From NCBI GenBank assembly GCA_031264015.1, contig JAISET010000144.1:1-38404 (forward strand): a stretch of DNA of 38,404 nucleotides, given 5' to 3'. The DNA is from Deltaproteobacteria bacterium. GTDB lineage: Bacteria > Desulfobacterota > Desulfarculia > Adiutricales > Adiutricaceae. Position 1 is the first letter of the stretch; the number at the start of each line of letters is the position of its first letter. A program made the translations under genes and the position numbers. Below the pieces are notes generated by a model. It was not told the DNA's origin, ran no database searches, and saw only the letters and a list, made by a program, of their open reading frames with translations. Positions 4,738 to 36,779 of this stretch are shown here, one piece after another.

Positions 4738-6123
4738 ATGCAGACGTTTTACGCAGTGGTATATTTTCTGGCCTTCTGCCTGGCCGCCCCCTACTGGCTG
4801 GTCCGGGGGATCCTCAACCGCGCCTATTTGAAAACGCTGAGGTCCCGCTTCATCGGCCCGGGCCGGGTGCTGCCCAAACAGGGAGGCAGGCCCAGGGTCT
4901 GGGTCTGGGCCCTCTCGCTGGGGGAGGTCCTCTCGGCCAGGGAGCTGGTCAGAGTCCTGAGGGAAAATGGCTGCGACGTCGTCGTCACCGCCACCACCCT
5001 CTCCGGGCTGGCCCAGGCCAAGTCCGTCTGGCCCACCCTGCCGGTCCTGCCCTCCCCCCTGGACTTCGAGCTCTCGACAAGAAGGTTTCTGGACTTCGTC
5101 GACCCGGACGCGCTGGTGCTGGTCGAGACGGACATCTGGCCGGGGATCCTTTTGGAGCTGGAGCGCCGCGGCGTCCCCAAGTATCTGGTCTCGGGCCGGC
5201 TCTCGCCCAGGTCCTTCAAAAACTACAGGCGCATCTCCTTTTTCTGGGGCAGGGTCCTGAGGCTCTTCGAGGCCATAGCCGCCCAGACCGAGGAGGACCG
5301 CGAGAAGTTTGTCGCCCTGGGGGCCGACCCCGACAAGGTGGGGGTCACCGGCAACCTGAAGTTCGACCAGCAGGCCGCGCCCGGCGGCCCCGGGGAGAAG
5401 GAGGCCCTGCTCAAGGAAAGCGGCTGGCCCGACGGGCGCTGGCTGGTGGCCGGCAGCACCCACCCGGGCGAGGACGTCATGATCATGGCCTCGTTCCTCG
5501 AATTATGGCCCAGGCACAAGGACCTGCGCCTTTTGATCGCCCCCCGGGACCGCCACAAGTTCGGCCTGACCTGGAGGCTGGTCCGGGAGCGCTTCCCCCG
5601 GGACTCGGCCAGGCGCGGCGCCCCCCGGGACTCCGACTCCGGGGCCAGGGTCTTCCTGCTGGACACCCTGGGCGAGCTGGAGCGCTACTACGGGCTGGCC
5701 GACGTGGCCCTGGTCGGCAAGAGCTGGCCCGGCCCCCACGAGGGCGGCGGCCACAACCCCCTGGAGGCGGCGGCCCGCGGCAAGGCGGTGCTGGCCGGCC
5801 CCAGGGTCTCCAACTTCAAATGGATGTACAAGGCCCTGAACGCCGCCGGGGCCGCCAAGACCGTCGAGAAGGCCGAGCTGACCCGGACCCTGGACCGGCT
5901 GCTGAGCCAGCCCGGCCTGGCCGCCGAGATGGGCAGGCGGGGCCTGGAGTTCGTCGGGGCCCACCGCGGGGCCGCCCGGGCCACCCTGAAGTTTCTGGCC
6001 GGACGCGGCCCCGGGGACCTCTGGTCCGGGAGCCCCCTGCCGGCCGACCCGGCCAGGACCCCCGGGGAGGCCGGGCCCGCCGGCGACCAACCGGCCGGGA
6101 CCGCGCCCCCGGCGGACAAATAG
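4738..6123 (+). CDS. waaA: 3-deoxy-D-manno-octulosonic acid (Kdo) transferase
   Basis: The 461-residue protein transfers Kdo from CMP-Kdo to the lipid A precursor at the inner membrane, the first step of LPS core assembly. An N-terminal hydrophobic anchor (about 1-25) is followed by WALSLGE (57-63), whose Glu is the conserved catalytic residue of the family's SVGE motif. Then come VTATTLSGLAQA, LVETDIWPG and GNLKFD in the N-terminal half, and GSTHPGED and a nucleotide-binding GGHNPLEAAARGKAVLAGP in the C-terminal GT-B half. The length is about 30 residues above usual because of a Pro/Gly/Ala-rich tail that is probably disordered. The tail's composition follows the local GC extremes. It heads the lipid A/core block. 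Whether it adds one or two Kdo residues cannot be read from sequence. Confidence 0.93.
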   Translation: MQTFYAVVYFLAFCLAAPYWLVRGILNRAYLKTLRSRFIGPGRVLPKQGGRPRVWVWALSLGEVLSARELVRVLRENGCDVVVTATTLSGLAQAKSVWPTLPVLPSPLDFELSTRRFLDFVDPDALVLVETDIWPGILLELERRGVPKYLVSGRLSPRSFKNYRRISFFWGRVLRLFEAIAAQTEEDREKFVALGADPDKVGVTGNLKFDQQAAPGGPGEKEALLKESGWPDGRWLVAGSTHPGEDVMIMASFLELWPRHKDLRLLIAPRDRHKFGLTWRLVRERFPRDSARRGAPRDSDSGARVFLLDTLGELERYYGLADVALVGKSWPGPHEGGGHNPLEAAARGKAVLAGPRVSNFKWMYKALNAAGAAKTVEKAELTRTLDRLLSQPGLAAEMGRRGLEFVGAHRGAARATLKFLAGRGPGDLWSGSPLPADPARTPGEAGPAGDQPAGTAPPADK

Positions 6124-7381: not shown

Positions 7382-8844
7382 CGCCCGGGACCCTCGAAAT
7401 TTCCTCCCCCGGACCCCGGCCGGCCGTGACCGGCCCCCCGGCCCGGCCCGGCCCCGGCCCGGTGGTGGTCAGGGGCCTCAACTGGCTCGGCGACGCCGTC
7501 ATGAGCCTGCCCGCGCTCGCGGCGGTGCTGGCGGCCCGGCCCCCCGGCGGGGTCGCGGTGGTGGCCAGGGCGGGCACGGCGGATCTCTACCGCCTCGCCG
7601 CGGGCGAGAAAAACGTCATCGTGGAGGGGCCGGGCCTCTCCGGCCGGCTCGCCGCGGCCGGGGCGGTCCGGGAGCTCGGGCCCTCGGCCTACCTGGTCCT
7701 CCCGAACTCCTTCTCCGCGGCCGCCTGCGCCTTTTTGAGCCGGGCGCCCCTGCGTCTGGGGAGCGCCCGGAACCTGCGCTCGCCGCTGCTGACCCGCCCG
7801 GTGGAGTTCAGCCCCGAGGAGCTGGCCGCCCACGAGAGCTTCCGCTTCCTGCGCCTGGCCGGGGAGCTGGGGGTGGAGGCCAGGTTCTCGAGGCCGTCCC
7901 TGGCCCCGCCCGGGCCCCCGCCGGAGCTTCCCCTGCCCGCCGGCCCGCGTCTGGCCGTGGCCCCGGGGGCCGCCTTCGGGGGCGCCAAGCGCTGGCCGGC
8001 CGCCTGCTTCGCGCGCGCCGCCGCCCTGGTCGCGCGAGACCTCGGGGGCGGGGTGGTCATCCTGGGCGGGCCCTCCGAGACGGAGGCGGCCGGGGAGGTG
8101 GAGAGGCTGCTGCCCGCCGGCGTCCCCGTCGTCAACCTGGCGGGCCGCACCAGCCTGACGGAGGCCGTCTCGGTCCTGGCGGGCTGCCGCCTGACCCTGG
8201 CCAACGACTCCGGGCTCATGCATCTCTCGGCCGCCCTGGACGTGCCGGTCGTCGCCGTCTTCGGGCCCACCGACCCCGTGCGCACCTCGCCTTTGGCCGG
8301 AAGGCTGGCCGTCCTGCGCCGGGGCTGCGGCTGCTCGCCGTGCCGGCACCGGGAGTGCCCCAAAAAAGACCGCGTCTGCTTCGACGGGCTGACCCCGGAG
8401 CTGGCGGCCGCGGCCGCCGGCCGGCTGCTGGCCCCCGCCCGCCGGGCCCCCAAGACCGTCTTCTGGTCCCCCGCCCCGGGGGAGGTCTTCCCCGAGGCCG
8501 GCCCGGCGACGGCCGTCTGCCGCATGCTGGCCTCGGACCTGGAGGCCGCGGGCCTGGACCCCGGGTCCCTGCCCCCCTGGGTCGGCCTGCTGGGCGACCG
8601 GGCCGACGACCGGCGCTCCTGGACGCTGCTCCTCCGCCGCCTCGACGTCGACCCCGCCGGCGCCTACTGGCTCGGCCACGACAAGGAGGCGGTCGGGCGG
8701 GCCCGCGCCCTGGGCGGCCGCTCCCTGCTGGTCGCGGGCCCCCGGGCCCGCTCCGAGCTGCCCGGGATGCTGGCCGACGGCTCGCTCCCCTTCATGGCCG
8801 TGCCCGACGCCCGGCGCGGCCTGGAGTTGGTCGACTCCATGTGA
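7378..8844 (+). CDS. waaF: GT9 heptosyltransferase (WaaF-like) with C-terminal extension
   Basis: A glycosyltransferase family 9 enzyme, most like ADP-heptose:LPS heptosyltransferase II, adding heptose to the inner core. The GT9 domain runs from about residue 29 (VVVRGLNWLGDAVMSLPAL) to about 350, with LANDSGLMHLSAALDVPVVAVFGPTDP as the sugar-nucleotide site. The first ~28 residues are Pro/Gly-rich, so a later start is possible; the GTG at 7378 is chosen for its GTGA overlap with lpxK. At 488 residues it is about 130 longer than usual. The extra C-terminus (from about 358) contains LLLRRLDVDPAGAYWLGHDKEAVGRARALGG, reminiscent of the distal half of GmhB-type HAD phosphatases but without the DxD nucleophile motif. 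That resemblance is inference. WaaF versus another GT9 heptosyltransferase is judged from context. Confidence 0.82.
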   Translation: MTPGTLEISSPGPRPAVTGPPARPGPGPVVVRGLNWLGDAVMSLPALAAVLAARPPGGVAVVARAGTADLYRLAAGEKNVIVEGPGLSGRLAAAGAVRELGPSAYLVLPNSFSAAACAFLSRAPLRLGSARNLRSPLLTRPVEFSPEELAAHESFRFLRLAGELGVEARFSRPSLAPPGPPPELPLPAGPRLAVAPGAAFGGAKRWPAACFARAAALVARDLGGGVVILGGPSETEAAGEVERLLPAGVPVVNLAGRTSLTEAVSVLAGCRLTLANDSGLMHLSAALDVPVVAVFGPTDPVRTSPLAGRLAVLRRGCGCSPCRHRECPKKDRVCFDGLTPELAAAAAGRLLAPARRAPKTVFWSPAPGEVFPEAGPATAVCRMLASDLEAAGLDPGSLPPWVGLLGDRADDRRSWTLLLRRLDVDPAGAYWLGHDKEAVGRARALGGRSLLVAGPRARSELPGMLADGSLPFMAVPDARRGLELVDSM

Positions 8845-25547: not shown

Positions 25548-25837
25548 ATTTTTAGCGGCTTGAAAGCCAGGCCGCTTTCAGGCCTGTCCAAGGGCCACCC
25601 ATCATCCCGACCGACCCGCCCGTCCGGGGCGGGCCGGCGGGCCGTCAACCGTCCGGCGCGGCGTCCTTCGGCGCCCCGGCGGACGCGCGCGCACAACGGC
25701 TTCTCGAGGCCGGGTCCCGCCGGACACCCGCCAGGGCTCCCGAGCCGGGGAGAACGGGCGGGGGCGGGGACAAAGGCGCCCGCCGCGGGCGGACGCCGCC
25801 CGCGAAACCTTGAGACGACATAGGAGGTAGAAAATAA

Positions 25838-27226
25838 GTGTCTAAAATTTTCACCCGCATGGGGGACGGCTCCCCCGTGGAACTGACCGAGGCGGAACTG
25901 CGGCAGGACATCGAGGACGGCATTCAGACCGCGGTGGACAAGGCGGGCGTTCCGGCGCTGGGCCAGGAGGAGATCGAGTACCTGATGGATCTCTTCAAGC
26001 GGACCGACCGGTTCGTGGGCGTGCCCAGGGGCAAGGAAGTCGTCATGAGCTACGACGCCGCCACGCTGAAGATCAAGCGCCACTCCTTGTTGGAGGACCG
26101 GGTCAGCTCCCTGATGATCTACGAGAAGCTCCTGGGGGCCGACACCCTCGAGCTGTGCCACGTGGACTACAGCTTCAAGCCGCTCAAGCCCATCATCAGC
26201 TACGAGACGGCCACCATGGAGCAGGCCCTCTACTCGACCATCGCCCCCCTCTTCTACGGCGCGATGCCCAACCTGGGGCTCTACACCGTGCCTGACGGGC
26301 CCTTCCCCAACCCCATGGAGCTTCTGCCCATGGGCAAGATCAAGGAGGGCCGCGCCGCCTACGAGGACATGGTCGAGGCGGCCATCAAGGACATCGTCTT
26401 CGCCTCCGAGCTGATGTGGGAGGCCGGGGCGGACGGCATCAACTTCGACACCGTGGGCGCCCAGGGGGACCCGGACTTCCAGGCGTCCTTGCGGGCCGTG
26501 GAGATCCTGACCAACAAGTACCCCGACATGCCCATCGAGGTGGGCATGGCCGGCGAGTTCGTCCTGGGCATGCACGGCCAGATGGAATACGCCGACACCA
26601 GGCTGGCGGGGCTCTACCCGGCCGAGCAGTGCGCGGTGGCCGAGAAGGCCGGCACGGCCATCTTCGGGCCGGTGGTCAACACCAACACCAACGAGTCGAC
26701 GCCCTGGAATCTGGCCAGGACGGTGGCCATCATCAAACCATGCGGCCTGTCGGCCAAGATCCCCATCCACGCCAACATGGGCATGGGGGTCGGGGCCGTC
26801 CCCGTCACCGACTACCCCCCGGTGGACGTGGTCAGCCGCTGCTCGAAAGCGCTGGTGGAGCTCTGCTTCCTCGACGGCATCTAGGTGGGCGTCGGAGACC
26901 CCATCGGCATGGCCGTCTGCCACGCTGAGGCTTCAGGCATGGGTGGAATGAGAACCGCCGGAGATCTGGTGGGAAGAGTCCAGCTAGCCAAGAAGCTTCG
27001 AATCAACGAGGCCAAGAAATACGTGGCCGACAAGTTGAAAGTGGGAGTGGACGAGCTGTCCGACCCCGTCATCATGAGCGAAGTCCGGACCGACTTGGGC
27101 TTCGGCATCATGATGCCCCTAGGAACAACCCCCAAGGGCCTGGAATGCAAGTTCAACATCGCCAGGGTCCTGGACCTCGACATCAACTGCCTCAACCGCT
27201 TCAAGTCAAGAGCCGGCCTGGTCTAG
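25838..27226 (+). CDS. mtbB: dimethylamine methyltransferase MtbB, internal UAG read as pyrrolysine
   Basis: MtbB moves a methyl group from dimethylamine to the Co(I) corrinoid of MtbC. The reading frame contains an in-frame TAG at 26882-26884 (codon 349). The flanks are VELCFLDGI before it and VGVGDPIGMAVCHAEASGM after it. This is the exact context of the pyrrolysine in Methanosarcina MtbB (DGI-Pyl-VGVGDP). Homology runs unbroken through both halves, giving 462 residues, the family length. Pyrrolysine is thought to bind the amine substrate in the TIM-barrel active site. The GTG start has AGGAGGT 9 nt upstream. Treating the TAG as a stop would yield a dead 348-residue fragment. The terminal codon is also TAG and is in frame with mtbC, 18 nt upstream of its ATG. 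pylS, pylT and pylBCD are not in the window. Confidence 0.96.
26882..26884 (+). other. pyrrolysine codon of mtbB
   Basis: A UAG at codon 349 lies in the conserved DGI-Pyl-VGVGDP context, with coding similarity continuing on both sides. It should be annotated as a translational exception. Confidence 0.95.
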
Positions 27227-27244: not shown

Positions 27245-27895
27245 ATGACAAAGGTGTCCGAGATTTTTCAACAGGCAGTGGATGCCATCATGGAGCAGGA
27301 CGAGGCCAAGGCCATGGACGTGGTCAAAAGGCATCTGGACGCCGGCGGCGACCCCATGCTTTTGATGAACCAGGGGTTCATCAAGGGCATCACCCAGGTC
27401 GGCGACCTGTTCGGCTCCGGGAAGCTGTTTCTGCCCGAGCTGATGATGTCCGCCGACGTCATGCTGGCCGCCTCGCAGGCCATTAACGAGGCCATGCCCG
27501 AGGGCCAGAGCAGCACTTTCGCCAACGTCCACATCACCGCCGCCACGGTCAAGGGCGACATCCACGACATCGGCAAGGGCATAGGCATCGCCCTCTTCCG
27601 CGCCAACGGCTTCACCGTGCACGACCTGGGCCGCGACGTGGACAACGACGTCATCGTCGACTCGGCCGTCAAGAACAACGCCGCGATCATCGCCACCAGC
27701 GCCCTGCTCACGACCACTTTGCCGGAGCAGAAGAAGCTCGAGGAGATGCTCAAAAAGTCCGGGCTCAAGGGCAAGATAAAAACCATGGTGGCAGGGGCCC
27801 CAGTGACACCTCGCTGGGCCAGCCGCATCGGTGCCGACATCTACGCCGAGGACGCACACGCCGGCGTCCGCGGGGTCATCGAGGCAGTTTCCTGA
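27245..27895 (+). CDS. mtbC: methylamine-specific corrinoid protein (MtbC-like)
   Basis: A 216-residue two-domain corrinoid carrier. A helical cap (about 1-85) is followed by a cobalamin-binding Rossmann-like domain with GDIHDIGKGIG (Asp105-x-His107-x-x-Gly110), whose His is the lower cobalt ligand. SALLTTT and VAGAPVTPRWASRIGAD complete the B12 fold. It accepts the methyl group from MtbB and hands it on to a corrinoid:CoM or corrinoid:tetrahydrofolate methyltransferase, which is not encoded here. AAAAAGGAG precedes the ATG. Only 18 nt separate it from the mtbB terminal TAG, in the same frame. No second corrinoid gene accompanies mttB, so this protein may serve all three methyltransferases (inference). 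A good terminator follows. Confidence 0.94.
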   Translation: MTKVSEIFQQAVDAIMEQDEAKAMDVVKRHLDAGGDPMLLMNQGFIKGITQVGDLFGSGKLFLPELMMSADVMLAASQAINEAMPEGQSSTFANVHITAATVKGDIHDIGKGIGIALFRANGFTVHDLGRDVDNDVIVDSAVKNNAAIIATSALLTTTLPEQKKLEEMLKKSGLKGKIKTMVAGAPVTPRWASRIGADIYAEDAHAGVRGVIEAVS

Positions 27896-28506: not shown

Positions 28507-29766
28507 ATGTTGTTTGGCATCAGAACGATGGACGAGCTGGAAGTGAGGGGCGCGACGGTCCTCCTGCGGGCGGACGTCAACCAGCCGGTGGACAGGAAGA
28601 CGGGCAGACTCAAGGACACCACCAGGATCAGGGCCTCGATCCCGACCCTGGCCGAGCTCTCCAAAAAGGGCGCCAAAACCGTGCTCCTGGCCCACCAGGG
28701 CAGCGACATAGAATACAAGAATTTTTACACCCTGAGACCGCACTCCGAGGTCATAGCGTCCCTCCTGGACGCCAAAGTCAAGTTTGTCGAGGACGTCTGC
28801 GGCCCGGCGGCCTTGGAGGCGGTTAAAAACCTGCGGGACGGGGAAGTCCTGATTCTCGAGAACGTCCGCTTCCTGGCCGAGGAGCAGACGCTCTTCGAGC
28901 TCAATTTGAAGCTCGACCACGAGCGGCAGGCCGAGACTCTTCTGGTCAGAAAGCTCGCCCCCCTGGCCGACTTCTACATAGGCGACGCCTTCGCCGCCGC
29001 CCACCGGGACCAGCCGTCCCTGTGCGGCTTCCAGCAGGTGCTTCCCTCGGCCATGGGCCGCCTGTTCGAGCGCGAGTACGCCGTCGTCTCCCAGCTGACG
29101 GAGTCCCCGGAGAGGCCCTGCGTCTTCGTCCTCGGAGGCTCCAAGATCGGCGACGCCTTTTTAATGATGGAGACGGTGCTGGCCGCGAAGACCGCCGACC
29201 TGGTCCTGGCCGGGGGGCTGGTGGGGGAGATCCTCTCCTGGGCGCGGGGCGTCGACCTGGGCCGGACCACCCGCGAGTTTATTATTAAAGAGGGCCACGA
29301 CCGGCTCCTGGACAAGGCCAAAAAACTGCTGGCCGACCACCCGGGGAGCTTCCTGGTCCCCGAGGACTACGCGTTCGCGAGCGACGGCAAGCGCGCGGAG
29401 GCGGACGTCGGCCAACTGCCCGACGACCATCTTTTGGCCGACATCGGCTCCAAAACGGCGGGGAAGTTCAGGCAGGCCATCGAGGGGGCCAAGACCGTCT
29501 TCGTCAACGGGCCCGTCGGCATCTTCGAGGAGGCGCCCTCCGAGCTCGGCACCAAGGCCGTCTGGGAGGCCCTGGCCGAGACGGGGGCCCACACGGTCAT
29601 CGGGGGCGGGGACAGCATCGCCGCCGCCGAGAAGTTCCGGGTGACGGAAAAGATCGGCTACGTCTGCACCGGGGGAGGCGCCCTGATCCGCTTCCTCTCC
29701 GGCGAGGTGCTGCCCGTCGTCCGCGCCCTGCGCCATGGCTCGCTCATCGACGAGAAGAGGATTTGA
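28507..29766 (+). CDS. pgk: phosphoglycerate kinase of archaeal type
   Basis: PGK interconverts 1,3-bisphosphoglycerate + ADP and 3-phosphoglycerate + ATP in glycolysis and gluconeogenesis. The 419-residue protein has the two-lobe PGK architecture, but its motifs are those of archaeal enzymes. VLLAHQGS replaces the bacterial SHxGRP loop, and LVRKLAPLADFYIGDAFAAAHRDQPSLCGF and RPCVFVLGGSKIGD follow the methanogen pattern. NGPVGIFE and IGGGDSIAAAE...TGGGA form the ATP lobe, so it appears catalytically complete. RVDFN is altered to RADVN. It has no strong ribosome-binding site at the ATG (28507). It is followed by an archaeal-type GAPDH gene and sits between mtbBC and mttB. Transfer from an archaeal donor is the natural reading; the donor cannot be named without a tree. 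Confidence 0.92.
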   Translation: MLFGIRTMDELEVRGATVLLRADVNQPVDRKTGRLKDTTRIRASIPTLAELSKKGAKTVLLAHQGSDIEYKNFYTLRPHSEVIASLLDAKVKFVEDVCGPAALEAVKNLRDGEVLILENVRFLAEEQTLFELNLKLDHERQAETLLVRKLAPLADFYIGDAFAAAHRDQPSLCGFQQVLPSAMGRLFEREYAVVSQLTESPERPCVFVLGGSKIGDAFLMMETVLAAKTADLVLAGGLVGEILSWARGVDLGRTTREFIIKEGHDRLLDKAKKLLADHPGSFLVPEDYAFASDGKRAEADVGQLPDDHLLADIGSKTAGKFRQAIEGAKTVFVNGPVGIFEEAPSELGTKAVWEALAETGAHTVIGGGDSIAAAEKFRVTEKIGYVCTGGGALIRFLSGEVLPVVRALRHGSLIDEKRI

Positions 29767-29775
29767 AGTTTTTTG

Positions 29776-29803
29776 GCCCGCCCGGCCGGGCGGGCGGATT
29801 TTT
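29776..29803 (+). terminator. terminator after pgk
   Basis: A fully palindromic hairpin (GCCCGCCC with GGGCGGGC around GGCC, 29776-29795) is followed, after three bases, by a run of five T. Confidence 0.6.
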
Positions 29804-29840
29804 CGCGCCCCCCGGGGGCGACGTGGCGACAATCAGACGA

Positions 29841-29855
29841 TTTGGCACTGCCAAA
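29841..29855. promoter_or_regulatory. possible operator upstream of the GAPDH gene
   Basis: TTTGGCA-C-TGCCAAA is a perfect 7-bp inverted repeat 24 nt before the GAPDH ATG, in a locally AT-rich stretch. It looks like a dimeric repressor site. The partner protein is unknown. Confidence 0.5.
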
Positions 29856-29878
29856 ATTAATACAAGGGAGCGTTCATT

Positions 29879-30913
29879 ATGATAAAGGTTGGTGTGGCCG
29901 GCTACGGGGTCATCGGACAGCGCCTGGCCGACGGCGTGGCCCTCCAGGGCGACATGGAGCTGGTGGGGGTGGCCGATCTTCTGCCCACCCTGTCGATACA
30001 GGCCTTGCGGGAGAAGGGCATGCCCTACCGCCTGTTTCTGGTGGAGGGGGCGGACCGGCAGAAGTTTGACGGCCTGGGCATCCCCGTCAGCGGGAGCTTC
30101 GCCGAGCTGGTCGGCCAGGTGGACGTCATGCTGGACAGCTCCCCCGGCGGGGTGGGCCTCAAGAACAAGGCCCTCTACGAGAAGGCGGGCGTCAAGGCCG
30201 TCTTCCAGGGCGGCGAGGCCAACAGCGTGGCCGACGTCTTCTTCCACGGCTACGCCAATTATGAAAAGGGCCTGGGAGCCAACTACCTGAAGCTGACCAG
30301 CTGCAACACCACCGGCCTCATCCGCACGGTGGACTGCCTGGACAGGGCTTACGGGCTGGAGAGGGTGGCCATCACCATCATCCGCCGGGTGGCCGACCCG
30401 GGCGACTACCACCGGGGCCTGACCAACGCCCTGCAGATCGACAAGGCCCCCAGCCACCAGGCCGTGGACCTGATGACCATCATGCCCCACGTGGAGGCCA
30501 CCGGCATCCTGGTGCACACCCCCGTCACCCACGGGCACATCATCACGGTGCTGGCCCGCGGCAGGGACGGCAAAAAGATCACCAGGGAGATGGCCCTGGA
30601 GGCCTTCGGCAAGCACGAGCGCATCAGGGTGGTGTCGCTGGCCCGGGGGTTTTTGGGGAACGCCTCCTTGTTCCGCTACGCCCGCGACCTCGGCAACCCC
30701 AGGGGCGACATGTACGAGATCGGCCTCTGGGAGGACAGCGTGGTGGAGTCCGGGCCGGACGTCATGTACGCGATCAACATCCCCCAGGAGTCCGTGACCA
30801 TCCCCGAGACCATCGACGCCGTCAGGGCCGCCTTCAAGCTGCAGCCCGACTCCGCCTCGGCCACCTCGGCCACCAACAAGTTCCTGGGCCTGGGCAAATG
30901 GCTCAAAGGCTGA
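29879..30913 (+). CDS. gap: type II (archaeal-type) glyceraldehyde-3-phosphate dehydrogenase
   Basis: The 344-residue protein matches the archaeal phosphorylating GAPDH (type II), not the common bacterial GapA. It opens with the Rossmann start IKVGVAGYGVIGQRLADGV. LDSSPGGVGLKNKALYEKAGVKAVFQGGE follows, then TSCNTTGL with catalytic Cys142, then RRVADPGD and PSH. Bacterial GAPDH would instead show SCTTNCL. It converts glyceraldehyde-3-phosphate to 1,3-bisphosphoglycerate with NAD(P)H formation, the reaction next to PGK, so the two genes make a functional pair. AAGGGAG lies 9 nt before the ATG, and a 15-bp palindrome is just upstream. It lies between archaeal-type pgk and mttB. A GC hairpin without T-tract (30914-30930) follows. 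Confidence 0.92.
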   Translation: MIKVGVAGYGVIGQRLADGVALQGDMELVGVADLLPTLSIQALREKGMPYRLFLVEGADRQKFDGLGIPVSGSFAELVGQVDVMLDSSPGGVGLKNKALYEKAGVKAVFQGGEANSVADVFFHGYANYEKGLGANYLKLTSCNTTGLIRTVDCLDRAYGLERVAITIIRRVADPGDYHRGLTNALQIDKAPSHQAVDLMTIMPHVEATGILVHTPVTHGHIITVLARGRDGKKITREMALEAFGKHERIRVVSLARGFLGNASLFRYARDLGNPRGDMYEIGLWEDSVVESGPDVMYAINIPQESVTIPETIDAVRAAFKLQPDSASATSATNKFLGLGKWLKG

Positions 30914-31057: not shown

Positions 31058-32542
31058 ATGACCTTTAGAGCACCGTCGGCCGGCTTTCTGGCCAGCGGCG
31101 GATTTCGGCTCGAGACCTTCACCCGCGACGAGCTTGAGGAGCTGCACAGGGCCACCCTGGAGATCCTCGAGCACACGGGGGTCTACGTCCAGAAGGAGGA
31201 GGCCCGCGCCCTCTTTCGGGAGAAAGGCGCCCTGGTGGAGTCGGACGGGGTGGTCAAGATGCCCCCCTGGATGGTCGACGAGGCCATCAGGAGCGCGCCC
31301 CGGAGGCTGACCATGGCGGGCCGGACTCCCCAGCGCGACTGCGTCATCGAGGGCGGCCGGGTGACCTTCACCTGCTTCGGCGAGGGCATCTCCATCTACG
31401 ACCCCTTCGACGGCGAGTACCGCACCACCTGCAAGAACGACCTCAAGTACTCCACCCGGATCATCGACTCCCTGGACGTCATCTCCGTGGTCGAGCGCTG
31501 CGTGGGCAGCCAGGACGTGCCGGCCAAGGTCCAGTGCGTCCACAACTACGAGGCCATCGTCAACAACACCACCAAGCCGGTGTTTCTGGGCCCGGAAAAC
31601 GGCCGCAACATCAAGATCATGCTCGAGATGGCCAAGGCGGCCGTGGGCGAGGCCAGATACAAGGCGGCGGGCTCCCCCGTCTCCTTCATCACCTGCCCCG
31701 TCAGCCCCCTGCGGCTGGTGGAGGACTGCTGCGACATCATCATGACCTGCGCCGAGGAGGACGTCGCCCTCTGCATCCTCTCCATGGCCATGAGCGGGGG
31801 CTCGGCTCCCGTCAACCTGGCCGGCACCCTGGTCACCCACAACGCCGAGGTCCTGGCGGGGATAGTCCTGTCCCAGCTGGTCAAAAAAGGCGCCAAAGTG
31901 GTCTACGGCAGCTCCACCACGGCCATGAACCTGAAGATCGCCACGGCCTGCGTGGGCTCCCCCGAGCTCGCCATGATCAACGCGGCCGTCGCCTCCATCG
32001 CCCGCTTCTACGGCCTCCCCAGCTGGGTCGCCGGGGGGTAGGGCGACAGCAAGCTCCCCGACGCCCAGTCGGGACATGAAAAGACCCTCACCGGGCTGTT
32101 GCCGGCGTTGGCAGGTGCCAACATCATTTACGGCCTGGGCATGTTGGAAATGGGGGTCACTTTCAGTCTCGAGCAGCTCCTGATGGACGCGGACATGGCC
32201 AAGATGATCATGTACGCCGTCGGCGGGATCCCCGTCACCGACGAGACCCTCTCGTTGGACATCATCAAGGAGAACGGCTACAAGAAGGACTTTCTGACCC
32301 ACAAGAACACCTTCAAGAACCGCTTCATCCAGTCGTCCCCCAAGCTCATCGACCGCCGGACCAGGGTCAGGTGGCTGGAGGACCAGGGAGGGCTGGACAT
32401 GTTCCAGCGGGCCAAGAAGCAGTTCAAGGACCTCTACGACAACTATCAGCCCGACCCCCTGCCCGAGGGCGCCCACGAGGCCATCAGGGCCATCGTCCAC
32501 CGGACCGAGGAGGGCTTCGGCCTGCCCAAAAGCGAGTACTAG
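31058..32542 (+). CDS. mttB: trimethylamine methyltransferase MttB, internal UAG read as pyrrolysine
   Basis: MttB transfers a methyl group from trimethylamine to its corrinoid protein, leaving dimethylamine for MtbB. The frame carries TAG at 32039-32041 (codon 328). It is flanked by GLPSWVAGG and GDSKLPDAQSGHEKT, the known pyrrolysine context of MttB. Similarity continues with LLPALAGANIIYGLGMLEMG to residue 494, the normal family length. N-terminal features (LHRATLEILEHTGVYV, VTFTCFGEG) are typical. AAGGAGG lies 6 nt before the ATG. Reading the TAG as stop would leave a 327-residue fragment lacking half of the barrel. The terminal codon is TAG too; readthrough there would add about 100 unrelated residues. 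No mttC gene is adjacent, so the corrinoid partner may be the MtbC-like protein. Confidence 0.96.
32039..32041 (+). other. pyrrolysine codon of mttB
   Basis: A UAG at codon 328 in the conserved VAGG-Pyl-GDSK context, with intact family similarity on both sides. Confidence 0.95.
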
Positions 32543-32706: not shown

Positions 32707-34134
32707 ATGCAGCCATATCCCGCGGCCTTTTGGGACCCGGTCGGTCCCGAAGTCCTGGAGAAGGTCCATCGGAGCACCATGGAGGTGCTGGAGAAGACCG
32801 GCCTCAACTTCCACAGCGAGGAGGCCCTGGGGGTCTTCAAGAAGCACTCCCTGAAAGTCGACGGGCGCAGGGTCTATTTTGACGCCAAAACGGTGGACGA
32901 GGCCATAGCCAGCGCGCCCAAGTCCTTCACCGTCGCCGCCAGGGACCCCCGACACGACGTCGTCCTGGGCGAGGGCATGGTGGTGGCCACGGCCACGGGG
33001 GCCCTGTATTTCGTCACCGAAAAGGACGGGCGCAGGCCCGCCACCCTGGCCGACTTCTCCGACATCCAGAGGCTTTACCAAACGAGCGGGGTGGTCGACA
33101 TGGTCGGCTACACCCCCGTCTACCCGTCCGACGTGCCCGCGGAGATCAAGTTCCTGCGCATGGTCCAGGAGTCCCTCAGGAACACCTCCAAGCCCTTCAT
33201 CATCCCCATGAGCCACCGGGGCGAGTGCCTCGACATGCTGGAGATGGTGGCCCTGGGCTTCGGGGACGAGCGGATCTACGAGAAAAAGTGCGTCGTCTCG
33301 GCCGGCATCACTCCTCTGAACCCCCTCCAGTACGGCGCCGAGGCCCTGGAGACGATGATCGAGTTCGCCGGGCGCGGCCAGGCGCTGTTTCTGGCCCCGG
33401 CCCCGATGATGGGTTTGTCAAGCCCGCTGAGCCACCTGGGCACGGCCGTCCAGCAGAACGCCGAGATCCTGGGGGGCCTGGTCCTGGTCCAGCTGATCAG
33501 GCCCGGGAGCCCCGTCCTCTACATGCCCGGCAGTTTCGCCGGCTACATGAAGACGGCCGGCTGCGCGGTCTCCAGCCCCGACTCCTACCTGGCCAACGCC
33601 ATCAACTTCGAGCTCTGCCGCCGCAAGTACGGCCTCCCCATCCGCGCCAACTCCAGCATGACCGAGGCCAAGGTTTTCGACGCCCAGGCCGGGGCCGAGA
33701 CCATGCTCTGCATGCTCATGGCCATGATGGGCGGCGCCCACCTCTTCCACATCTCCCTGGGCTGCCTGGACTCCATCCTGGCCTTCAGCCCGGAGAAGAT
33801 GCTTTTCGACGAGGAGATCTATCTGCGCTGCGCCCACATGATGAAAGGGCCCTCGACCGCGGAGGCCGACTACTGCGTCGATCTTCTGGCCGACGTGGGC
33901 CCGGGGGGCAGCTTCATCAGCCACAAGAACACCTTGAAGAACTTCCGCAAGCTCTGGACGCCGACGCTCTCCCACTGGGACAGCCACCACAACTGGCTGG
34001 AGCTCGGCGAGCGGAAGTCCCTGGGCGCCAGGGCCGCGGCCGCCGTGGAAAAACGTCTGGCCGAGGCCAGGAGCGACTACCTGTCGCCCGACGCCGACAA
34101 GGCCTGCGAGGCGGTCGTCCAGAGAAGGTGCTGA
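32707..34134 (+). CDS. MttB-superfamily methyltransferase lacking pyrrolysine
   Basis: The 475-residue protein is a full-length paralogue of MttB. It starts VHRSTMEVLEKTGLNFHSEEA and ends in the family's SHKNTLKNFRKLWTP and SHWDSHHNWLELGE segments. In the segment equal to the pyrrolysine site it reads GLPIRANSSMTEAKVFDAQAG. A simple gap-free alignment places Met where MttB has pyrrolysine. Pyl-free members such as the glycine betaine methyltransferase MtgB demethylate quaternary amines (glycine betaine, proline betaine, carnitine and others). By analogy this one probably uses a quaternary amine and a corrinoid protein; the substrate is unknown. AGGAGG lies 5 nt before the ATG. It is 164 nt downstream of mttB and possibly cotranscribed. 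Confidence 0.92.
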   Translation: MQPYPAAFWDPVGPEVLEKVHRSTMEVLEKTGLNFHSEEALGVFKKHSLKVDGRRVYFDAKTVDEAIASAPKSFTVAARDPRHDVVLGEGMVVATATGALYFVTEKDGRRPATLADFSDIQRLYQTSGVVDMVGYTPVYPSDVPAEIKFLRMVQESLRNTSKPFIIPMSHRGECLDMLEMVALGFGDERIYEKKCVVSAGITPLNPLQYGAEALETMIEFAGRGQALFLAPAPMMGLSSPLSHLGTAVQQNAEILGGLVLVQLIRPGSPVLYMPGSFAGYMKTAGCAVSSPDSYLANAINFELCRRKYGLPIRANSSMTEAKVFDAQAGAETMLCMLMAMMGGAHLFHISLGCLDSILAFSPEKMLFDEEIYLRCAHMMKGPSTAEADYCVDLLADVGPGGSFISHKNTLKNFRKLWTPTLSHWDSHHNWLELGERKSLGARAAAAVEKRLAEARSDYLSPDADKACEAVVQRRC

Positions 34135-35153: not shown

Positions 35154-36779
35154 ATGAGCATGCAATTCGTCTTCGTCATATTTAGCATCCTGGTCTACAT
35201 CGTCGTGGGCCTCTGGGCCGGCCGCAAGGTCAAGGACACGGCCGACTACTACGTCAGCGGGCGCAACGCCCCGACGCTGTTGATCGCCGGGACCCTGTTC
35301 GCCTCCATGCTCAGCACCAACGGTTTCATGGGGGACACGGCCTGGACCTACGGGGGCGCCCTGGTCAACGCCGTGACCCTCAACGCCCTCTGCGGGGCCG
35401 GATACGTCGTCGGCGTCCTATTTTTCGGCCGCTACCTCAGACGGGCCAAGAGACTGACCATGCCGGAATACTTCGGCAAGCGGTTCAACAGCCCGGCCGT
35501 CCAGAAGGTGGCCGGCGTCATCACCGTCCTCTCCATCACCTCCTACCTGCTGGCGGTGACCACCGGGACGGGCATCCTCCTGTCCGAGCTGATCGGGTCC
35601 TCCAGGGCCGTGGGCTTCATCATAGCCTGGGTCTGCTTCACCTCCTTCACCTTCTACTCCGGGTCCTCCGGCGTCATCATCACCGACACGATGATGTTCC
35701 TTCTCTTCCTCGGCGCGACCGTCATCGCCGGCCCCTACATGTTCTCCGAGGCCGGCGGCCTGAGCAACCTGATGGACAACATCTTGAACAACCCCAACGC
35801 CCCCGCGGACATGTTCGCCTACCACGGCACCACCTACGGCAGCGGCGACAAATTCGGGGCGGTCATGTACGGGCTCATCTACGGGGTCATCTGGCTCATC
35901 GTGGTGGGCATCAGCCCCTGGCAGGCCGGCCGCAACATGATGGCCAAGAGCGAGCACGTGGCCATGCGCTCCTCCACCGTCGCCTGCGTCTGCACCACCG
36001 TCTTCCTGACCTACCTCTATCTGATGAGCATCGCCGTCATCCAGCTGGATCCGGCCCTCGACCCGCCCGAGCGCGTCATCATCTGGGCCTCCTACAACAT
36101 GATGCCGAAAGTCATAGGCTGCCTGGTCCTGGCGGGCATCATGGCCGCCGGTCTGTCCTCGGCCTCGACCTTCCTCTCGGTGGTGGGCTTCACCGTCACC
36201 CAGGACATCGTCGGCGTCAAGTTCAAAGACGACCACAGCAAGCTGGTCTGGACCAGGATAATCATGCTGATCGTCGGCGTCGTGGCCCTGATCCTGGCCT
36301 TCGCCGACCTTGGCAGCATCAGGATCATCTCCTGGTTCGCCTCCACCATCATCGCCTCCTCGTGGTTCGTGGTGGCCTTCGGCAGCGTCTGGAGCAAGAA
36401 GCTGACCGCCAGGGGCGCCCTGTGGTCCATGGTCGCGGGCTTCCTGGGCTTCATCATCACCAAATGGCTGCACGCCTCGGGCATCTGGAAGGTGTTCTCC
36501 AACTTCACCGACCCCTTCTTCATCGGGCTCTACCTCTCCATCATCTTCGCCTTCCTGGGCAGCATGGGCCATAAGCCCAGCAAGCAGGAGGCCGACATCC
36601 TGGCCGAGATGCACGTCATCCCGGCCGAGGAGACGGTCATGACGGAGTACAAGAGGACCTTCGCCTACGCCAACGTTCTCATTGTTCTCGGCCTGGCCAT
36701 CATCGTCGGCCTGATCGTTTTTTGGGCGCTCCCCTACAACGAGTTCATGGCCAACGCCGCGGCCGCCGTGACGCCGTAG
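35154..36779 (+). CDS. sodium:solute symporter (SSF) of the methylamine block
   Basis: The 541-residue polytopic protein has about 13 membrane helices and the SSF pattern: ADYYVSGRNAPTLLIAGTLFASMLSTNGFMGDTAWTYGG at TM1-TM2, RLTMPEYFGKRFNSPAVQ, the FYSGSSGVIITDTMMFLL helix, and LAGIMAAGLSSASTFLSVVGFTVTQDIV with sodium-coordinating Ser/Thr. It differs clearly from the symporter at 15014-16468. AAAGGAG lies 9-10 nt before the ATG. By position it is the uptake system for a methylated amine or betaine used by the neighbouring methyltransferases (inference; the SSF family also carries proline, acetate, sugars and others). The C-terminal part (about 460-500) is a charged loop before a last helix. 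It is followed by a strong terminator. The stop is TAG. Confidence 0.92.
   Translation: MSMQFVFVIFSILVYIVVGLWAGRKVKDTADYYVSGRNAPTLLIAGTLFASMLSTNGFMGDTAWTYGGALVNAVTLNALCGAGYVVGVLFFGRYLRRAKRLTMPEYFGKRFNSPAVQKVAGVITVLSITSYLLAVTTGTGILLSELIGSSRAVGFIIAWVCFTSFTFYSGSSGVIITDTMMFLLFLGATVIAGPYMFSEAGGLSNLMDNILNNPNAPADMFAYHGTTYGSGDKFGAVMYGLIYGVIWLIVVGISPWQAGRNMMAKSEHVAMRSSTVACVCTTVFLTYLYLMSIAVIQLDPALDPPERVIIWASYNMMPKVIGCLVLAGIMAAGLSSASTFLSVVGFTVTQDIVGVKFKDDHSKLVWTRIIMLIVGVVALILAFADLGSIRIISWFASTIIASSWFVVAFGSVWSKKLTARGALWSMVAGFLGFIITKWLHASGIWKVFSNFTDPFFIGLYLSIIFAFLGSMGHKPSKQEADILAEMHVIPAEETVMTEYKRTFAYANVLIVLGLAIIVGLIVFWALPYNEFMANAAAAVTP

Follow-up and report, generated by a model that had tools for sequence, protein, structure and literature searches.

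The mtbB gene in this 38,404-nucleotide stretch of DNA (hereafter the window) carries a UAG in frame, which raises the question of whether it is one intact gene and, if so, what reads this codon in a genome where UAG also ends genes. Sequence comparison shows mtbB to be intact, and UAG codon 349 is very probably translated as pyrrolysine. The genome to which the window belongs comprises 3.95 Mb in 282 contigs and is 87% complete; it comes from a relative of the termite-gut Candidatus Adiutricaceae (Desulfobacterota).

The mtbB gene and its in-frame UAG

The locus has the following features.

25822..25828, + strand: Shine-Dalgarno-like AGGAGGT, 9 nt upstream of the mtbB GTG start, read directly
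25838..27226, + strand: mtbB, dimethylamine--corrinoid protein Co-methyltransferase, 462 residues, GTG start, terminal TAG
26882..26884, + strand: in-frame TAG, putative pyrrolysine codon (codon 349)
27224..27226, + strand: TAG terminator of mtbB (ordinary stop), where the family models end

Under translation table 11 this DNA is read as two ORFs of 348 and 113 aa, so that a standard gene finder would split mtbB, as the sequence-only reading had anticipated. With the TAG translated as a residue, O falls at position 349 in the context DGI-O-VGVGDP, the MtbB pyrrolysine site to which that reading had assigned it. Curated Pfam and NCBIfam models were used as stand-ins for the Methanosarcina and Bilophila MtbB. 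PF09505, which also matches in the control genome of Methanosarcina acetivorans, runs through the TAG (617 bits, profile positions 5–462, one TAG inside), and TIGR02368 gives a whole-length match of 477.7 bits over protein residues 6–457 (curated cut-off, 369.1 bits). The protein is assigned to MtbB on its whole-length profile score above the curated cut-off together with the in-frame UAG at the pyrrolysine position. The earlier claims of one gene with an in-frame UAG, and of family similarity through both halves to normal length, are thus borne out. No sequence relative of MtbB was found in the PDB; its AlphaFold model is weak (mean pLDDT 67.9, with residues 352–373, just after the site, below 50), and a fold search gave no match below E = 0.001.

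The TAG is conserved wherever we found the gene. A scan of GTDB contigs yielded 15 mtbB loci, all 15 with the TAG in the motif DG[IL]-TAG-[VI]GVGDP, and among 41 genomes of the order 8 carried mtbB, in 11 copies that each contained exactly one TAG. One copy, L040, is that of the cultured relative Desulforhopalus singaporensis. After more distant copies had been added from a phylum scan of 395 genomes, the combined codon alignment of bacterial mtbB showed TAG in the column of codon 349 in 25 of 25 rows, of which 24 are distinct in the compared region (L185 repeats L033). The nearest mtbB is that of the MAG Deltaproteobacteria Ct408_bin86 (92% identity), followed by that of Candidatus Adiutrix sp. 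Kf353_bin84 (80%); other close copies come from the MAGs Gx485_bin194 and Pcl387_bin95. Sequences identical to these four closest copies occur in the order-search genomes G008, G005, G010 and G011, and three of the four hosts are members of the window's genus, while the fourth, also from this family, is placed in a sister genus.

In every pair compared with relatives, amino-acid identity in the part after the TAG equalled or nearly equalled that in the part before it (94.6 vs. 91.4% for copy L028 and 86.6 vs. 78.7% for copy L029). The dN/dS ratio was low on both sides in the computable pairs, for instance 0.055 after and 0.086 before the TAG with L028. These comparisons indicate that both halves of mtbB are under purifying selection.

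This bears on the alternative that the TAG is a true stop, in which case mtbB would be a pseudogene or would yield only the 348-residue protein, with the 113-codon ORF separate. The split made by standard gene finding, and the fact that UAG commonly serves as a functional stop in this organism, are what such an alternative would lead one to expect. However, all 25 homologues keep the TAG and continue in frame, dN/dS downstream of it ranges from 0.055 to 0.23 in the computable pairs, all pyl genes are encoded, and three genes of the genome carry a TAG, each at the pyrrolysine site known for its family. We consider a true stop very improbable, and favor the intact gene.

MtbB is an already known protein. 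The window gene resembles its family in the whole-length match, the TAG at the family's pyrrolysine position and the corrinoid gene directly downstream, but differs in its terminator, again a TAG, where TAA or TGA ends the majority of bacterial homologues. One message, that of mtbB, would thus hold both a pyrrolysine UAG and a stop UAG.

Other methylamine genes

Further genes related to methylamine metabolism follow mtbB in the window.

27245..27895, + strand: mtbC-like cognate corrinoid protein (PF02310, PF02607; TIGR02370 201.6 bits, slightly below the cut-off of 215.3)
31058..32542, + strand: mttB, trimethylamine--corrinoid methyltransferase, Pyl type (TIGR02369 652 bits, cut-off 525), ending in TAG
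32040..32042, + strand: in-frame TAG of mttB, context SWVAGG-O-GDSK
32707..34134, + strand: MttB-family methyltransferase without an internal stop, a non-Pyl paralogue (PF06253 335 bits)
35154..36779, + strand: sodium:solute symporter family protein (PF00474 112.7 bits)

The corrinoid protein scored 183.8 bits against the MtbC model, far below its cut-off, and the non-Pyl paralogue scored 271.6 bits against TIGR02369, below the cut-off of 525. The in-frame TAG of mttB is common to 13 aligned Pyl-mttB genes. A third gene, an mttB paralogue on contig C192, has a TAG at residue 330 (SWTGGT-O-TDSK), and each of the three TAGs, in mtbB, mttB and this paralogue, lies at the known pyrrolysine site of its family. 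Standard gene calling would miss these three catabolic methyltransferases, and with them the sign that this organism probably uses methylated amines. MtmB was looked for and was absent.

By established knowledge of MtbB, MtmB and MttB, Pyl349 of MtbB would hold dimethylamine, and the corrinoid protein, whose gene directly follows mtbB, would take over the methyl group.

Ten MttB-superfamily genes were found on contigs C34, C57, C63, C68, C120, C152 and C192, at least two with a pyrrolysine codon and the rest apparently without; so many members suggest that several methylated amines are demethylated. Between the mtbC-like gene and mttB (28507–30913) lie genes for phosphoglycerate kinase and a type II (archaeal-type) glyceraldehyde-3-phosphate dehydrogenase. 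The symporter might, at a guess from its position, be a methylamine transporter.

Pyrrolysine genes in the genome

The sequence-only reading had expected pylT, pylS and pylBCD elsewhere in the genome, and a search for the pyl genes and a CUA tRNA recovered the full set, on contigs C258 and C19.

C258, 1564–1636: tRNA-Pyl, anticodon CTA (CUA), found with ARAGORN
C258, 1665–1994: pylSn (TIGR03912 100.7 bits, cut-off 51)
C258, 2196–3038: pylSc (TIGR02367 226.2 bits, cut-off 178)
C258, within the ORF 7422–8678: pylB (349.1 bits, just over the cut-off of 348.2), with the radical-SAM motif CRNDCFFC
C258, 8804–9892: pylC (243 bits, slightly below the cut-off of 248.3)
C19, 4607–5389: pylD (154 bits, cut-off 150)

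The genes on C258 stand in the order tRNA-Pyl, pylSn, pylSc, pylB, pylC. We class the genome as pyrrolysine-encoding on the presence of tRNA-Pyl, both PylS parts and pylB, pylC and pylD, with pylC slightly below its cut-off; a genome devoid of pyl genes, which would have spoken against pyrrolysine, is not what was found. The tRNA has one base between the acceptor and D stems, a 6-bp anticodon stem and a 3-base variable region. Among 14 tRNA-Pyl sequences of the family the loop CUCUAAA is invariant, and changes in the stems preserve pairing. In the proposed pathway, PylB, PylC and PylD would convert lysine to pyrrolysine, which PylSc with PylSn would load onto tRNA-Pyl(CUA).

PylSc occurs in 17 of the 41 genomes of the order. 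PylS was present in 7 of the 8 MtbB-bearing genomes and in 10 of the 33 others (Fisher p = 0.005, uncorrected for relatedness). The one MtbB genome without PylS is 68% complete and has part of a pylD, and several PylS-positive genomes without MtbB have a TAG-containing mttB beside pylSc.

A near-cognate tRNA, such as one for Gln or Lys, might instead read through the UAG of mtbB. Against this stand the dedicated CUA tRNA-Pyl and both PylS parts encoded in the genome, the compact tRNA-Pyl fold kept in relatives, and the co-occurrence of PylS and MtbB. We consider such readthrough very improbable as well, and pyrrolysine remains the favored residue.

A split pyrrolysyl-tRNA synthetase is characteristic of bacteria. 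The set found here, with a CUA tRNA-Pyl, separate pylSn and pylSc, pylB and pylC, is like the pyl systems described in Desulfitobacterium, Bilophila, Desulfotomaculum and other bacteria (PMC3639795) and in marine Deltaproteobacteria (PMC8318568). It differs from the bacterial systems in three respects: pylD is on another contig, as it is in other members of the genus and in a second genus; about 4.5 kb separate pylSc from pylB; and trmL follows pylC.

Pyrrolysine in Deltaproteobacteria was already known (PMC8318568). In the NCBI taxonomy Candidatus Adiutrix belongs to Candidatus Adiutricaceae (Thermodesulfobacteriota), a family of putative acetogens of the termite gut (PMC9137090); a termite gut may be the source of the window's own sample. 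Our literature search found no description of pyrrolysine in Adiutricaceae; a single paper contained both terms, each of them one time. The present analysis adds this family as a pyrrolysine-using one, with a full pyl system and with UAG freely used as a stop alongside.

The partly AT-rich spacer between pylSc and pylB (C258, 3039–7571) contains a gene for a PD-(D/E)XK nuclease family transposase (PF12784, 3732–4832), together with a degenerate second copy of the 3′ end of pylSc (5552–5794, 73% identical). Nothing comparable was seen between the two pyl genes in the relatives examined. With this insertion, co-transcription of the pyl cluster is uncertain. The window's genus and others have the order pylT-Sn-Sc-B-C with pylD elsewhere; an alternative order, pylSc-pylD-pylSn-pylB-pylC, was seen in six genomes (G021–G025 and G035; loci L110, L112–L115 and L117), one of which, that of locus L113, has two tRNA-Pyl genes.

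Directly 3′ of pylC, on the same strand, lies trmL, encoding a tRNA wobble 2′-O-methyltransferase (C258, 9944–10399). The two genes are adjacent in eight genomes of four genera, this genome and seven others (those of L103, L105, L107, L108, L111, L116 and L155). The tRNA-Pyl sequences here have C34 and AAA at 36–38, which we take to be features recognised by TrmL. We considered TrmL as a dedicated tRNA-Pyl modifier but retain this as no more than a lead: trmL is a single-copy gene present in 35 of the 41 genomes, with or without pyl genes, and the pylC-trmL block runs on into unrelated neighbours. Inherited gene order explains the adjacency equally well on these grounds and is the simpler account.

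UAG as an ordinary stop

Stop usage was counted with a simple home-made gene caller in a 381-kb sample, 10% of the genome. The 222 predicted genes ended in TGA (118), TAG (77, about 35%) or TAA (27), and TAG-terminated genes include pylSn, pylB, mtbB and mttB. We looked for depletion of UAG and for back-up stops in this sample and found neither; UAG was common, and the next in-frame stop was no closer after TAG than after TGA.

Since UAG is frequent as a stop, pyrrolysine insertion cannot rest on a freed codon; it must have its basis in competition with release factor 1, in induction, in context, or in the three together. Competition of Pyl-tRNA with release factor 1 is the established model for bacterial systems. 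Here, too, charged tRNA-Pyl would compete with release factor 1 at UAG, and, with UAG ending about 35% of the sampled genes, translation should stop at codon 349 part of the time.

A hairpin downstream of the mtbB UAG

Two further features lie within mtbB.

26882..26981, + strand: match to PYLIS_2 (RF02509) whose first base is that of the UAG; 63.0 bits against a gathering score of 36 (E = 1.9e-14)
26955..26972, + strand: hairpin CCGCCGG-AGAU-CUGGUGG, 73–90 nt after the first UAG base, conserved at silent sites and covarying

PYLIS_2 is an already known element, but a match to it might reflect protein homology alone, and the DNA was therefore tested for constraint beyond the protein. Silent sites were scanned in ten-codon windows in 17 mtbB copies and then in 8 further copies, one of which repeats L033. 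In both sets the strongest silent-site conservation in mtbB lay in windows 19–35 codons past the UAG (P = 0.031 and 0.037 for the separate sets), and with all 25 copies the best of 462 windows reached P = 0.006 against column shuffles. The core of the hotspot, GCY-GGA-GAT-CTG, belongs to a stretch that folds as a seven-pair hairpin (columns 74–80 with 85–91) in the register of the second hairpin of PYLIS_2.

The pairing is supported across the 24 bacterial sequences, with 99.4% of cells paired in the hairpin core and a covariation score of 0.220 vs. 0.102 shuffled (0/500). Five of the seven pairs are invariant, being fixed by the encoded protein; the covariation signal comes from the other two. 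Columns 75 and 90 (26956–26971 in the window), both third-codon positions, hold C-G in 11 sequences, U-G in five, G-C in three, G-U in two, U-A in two and G.G once; of the 24,575 variable column pairs in mtbB whose members lie no more than 60 nt apart, this one ranks first, and the protein tree implies ten or more changes at it. Rival third-position partners for the two columns did worse, the best reaching 0.875 and 0.833 vs. 0.958. At columns 78 and 87, C-G is replaced by U-A in one sequence and by U-G in five.

The likeness to PYLIS_2 lies in the match starting from the UAG and in the second hairpin (model 73–92), which is present in the same register, although its outermost Rfam pair, 73–92, forms in only 4 of 24 sequences. 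Column pair 78–87, unpaired in Rfam, is paired in 24 of 24. A further difference is that the first Rfam stem (model 7–38) is broken in most bacterial copies: 71.6% of its cells are paired, and pairs 12–33, 14–31 and 17–27 are broken in 17, 20 and 22 of the 24. For bacteria, the analysis thus adds strong comparative evidence that speaks for one PYLIS_2 hairpin and against the first stem.

The same silent-site analysis of 13 Pyl-mttB genes revealed no significant hotspot (P = 0.56); the hairpin is thus particular to mtbB, and the reading of UAG does not in general require it. This agrees with a 2013 report in which mtmB and mtbB had their own predicted structures and mttB had none (PMC3639795); those structures look like the origin of the Rfam PYLIS_2 model.

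It is nearly an even question whether the hairpin acts on UAG decoding or is a real RNA element unrelated to it, serving, for example, mRNA stability or a folding pause, with the balance somewhat against the latter. An unrelated role would fit the distance of 73–90 nt, beyond the stretch covered by a ribosome at the UAG, and the lack of a comparable hotspot in Pyl-mttB, by which UAG decoding in general needs no such element. On the other side, the hairpin is part of an Rfam element named for pyrrolysine insertion in mtbB and is the most silent-site-conserved part of that gene. In addition, an E. coli study, in the terms in which PMC3639795 cites it, found that the PYLIS structure was non-essential but increased the Pyl product, which fell when PYLIS carried silent changes. 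A role in UAG decoding is plausible, although a simple road-block is less likely at this distance from the codon. The hairpin would probably raise the share of full-length protein or otherwise tune translation.

A more specific and rather doubtful proposal has two parts. In bacterial mtbB the cis element under selection would be this short hairpin, rather than the larger fold placed beside the codon, and through it the internal UAG would be read as pyrrolysine while the UAG that ends mtbB, and about a third of all genes, still stops translation. TrmL, whose gene keeps its place after pylC in some members of the family, might there have C34 of tRNA-Pyl as a further target. The covarying hairpin offers a concrete, mutable candidate signal. 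In the window, the RNA from 26882 to 27001 has a predicted folding energy of −58.2 kcal/mol (z = −4.08), and the hairpin is present in its best structure.
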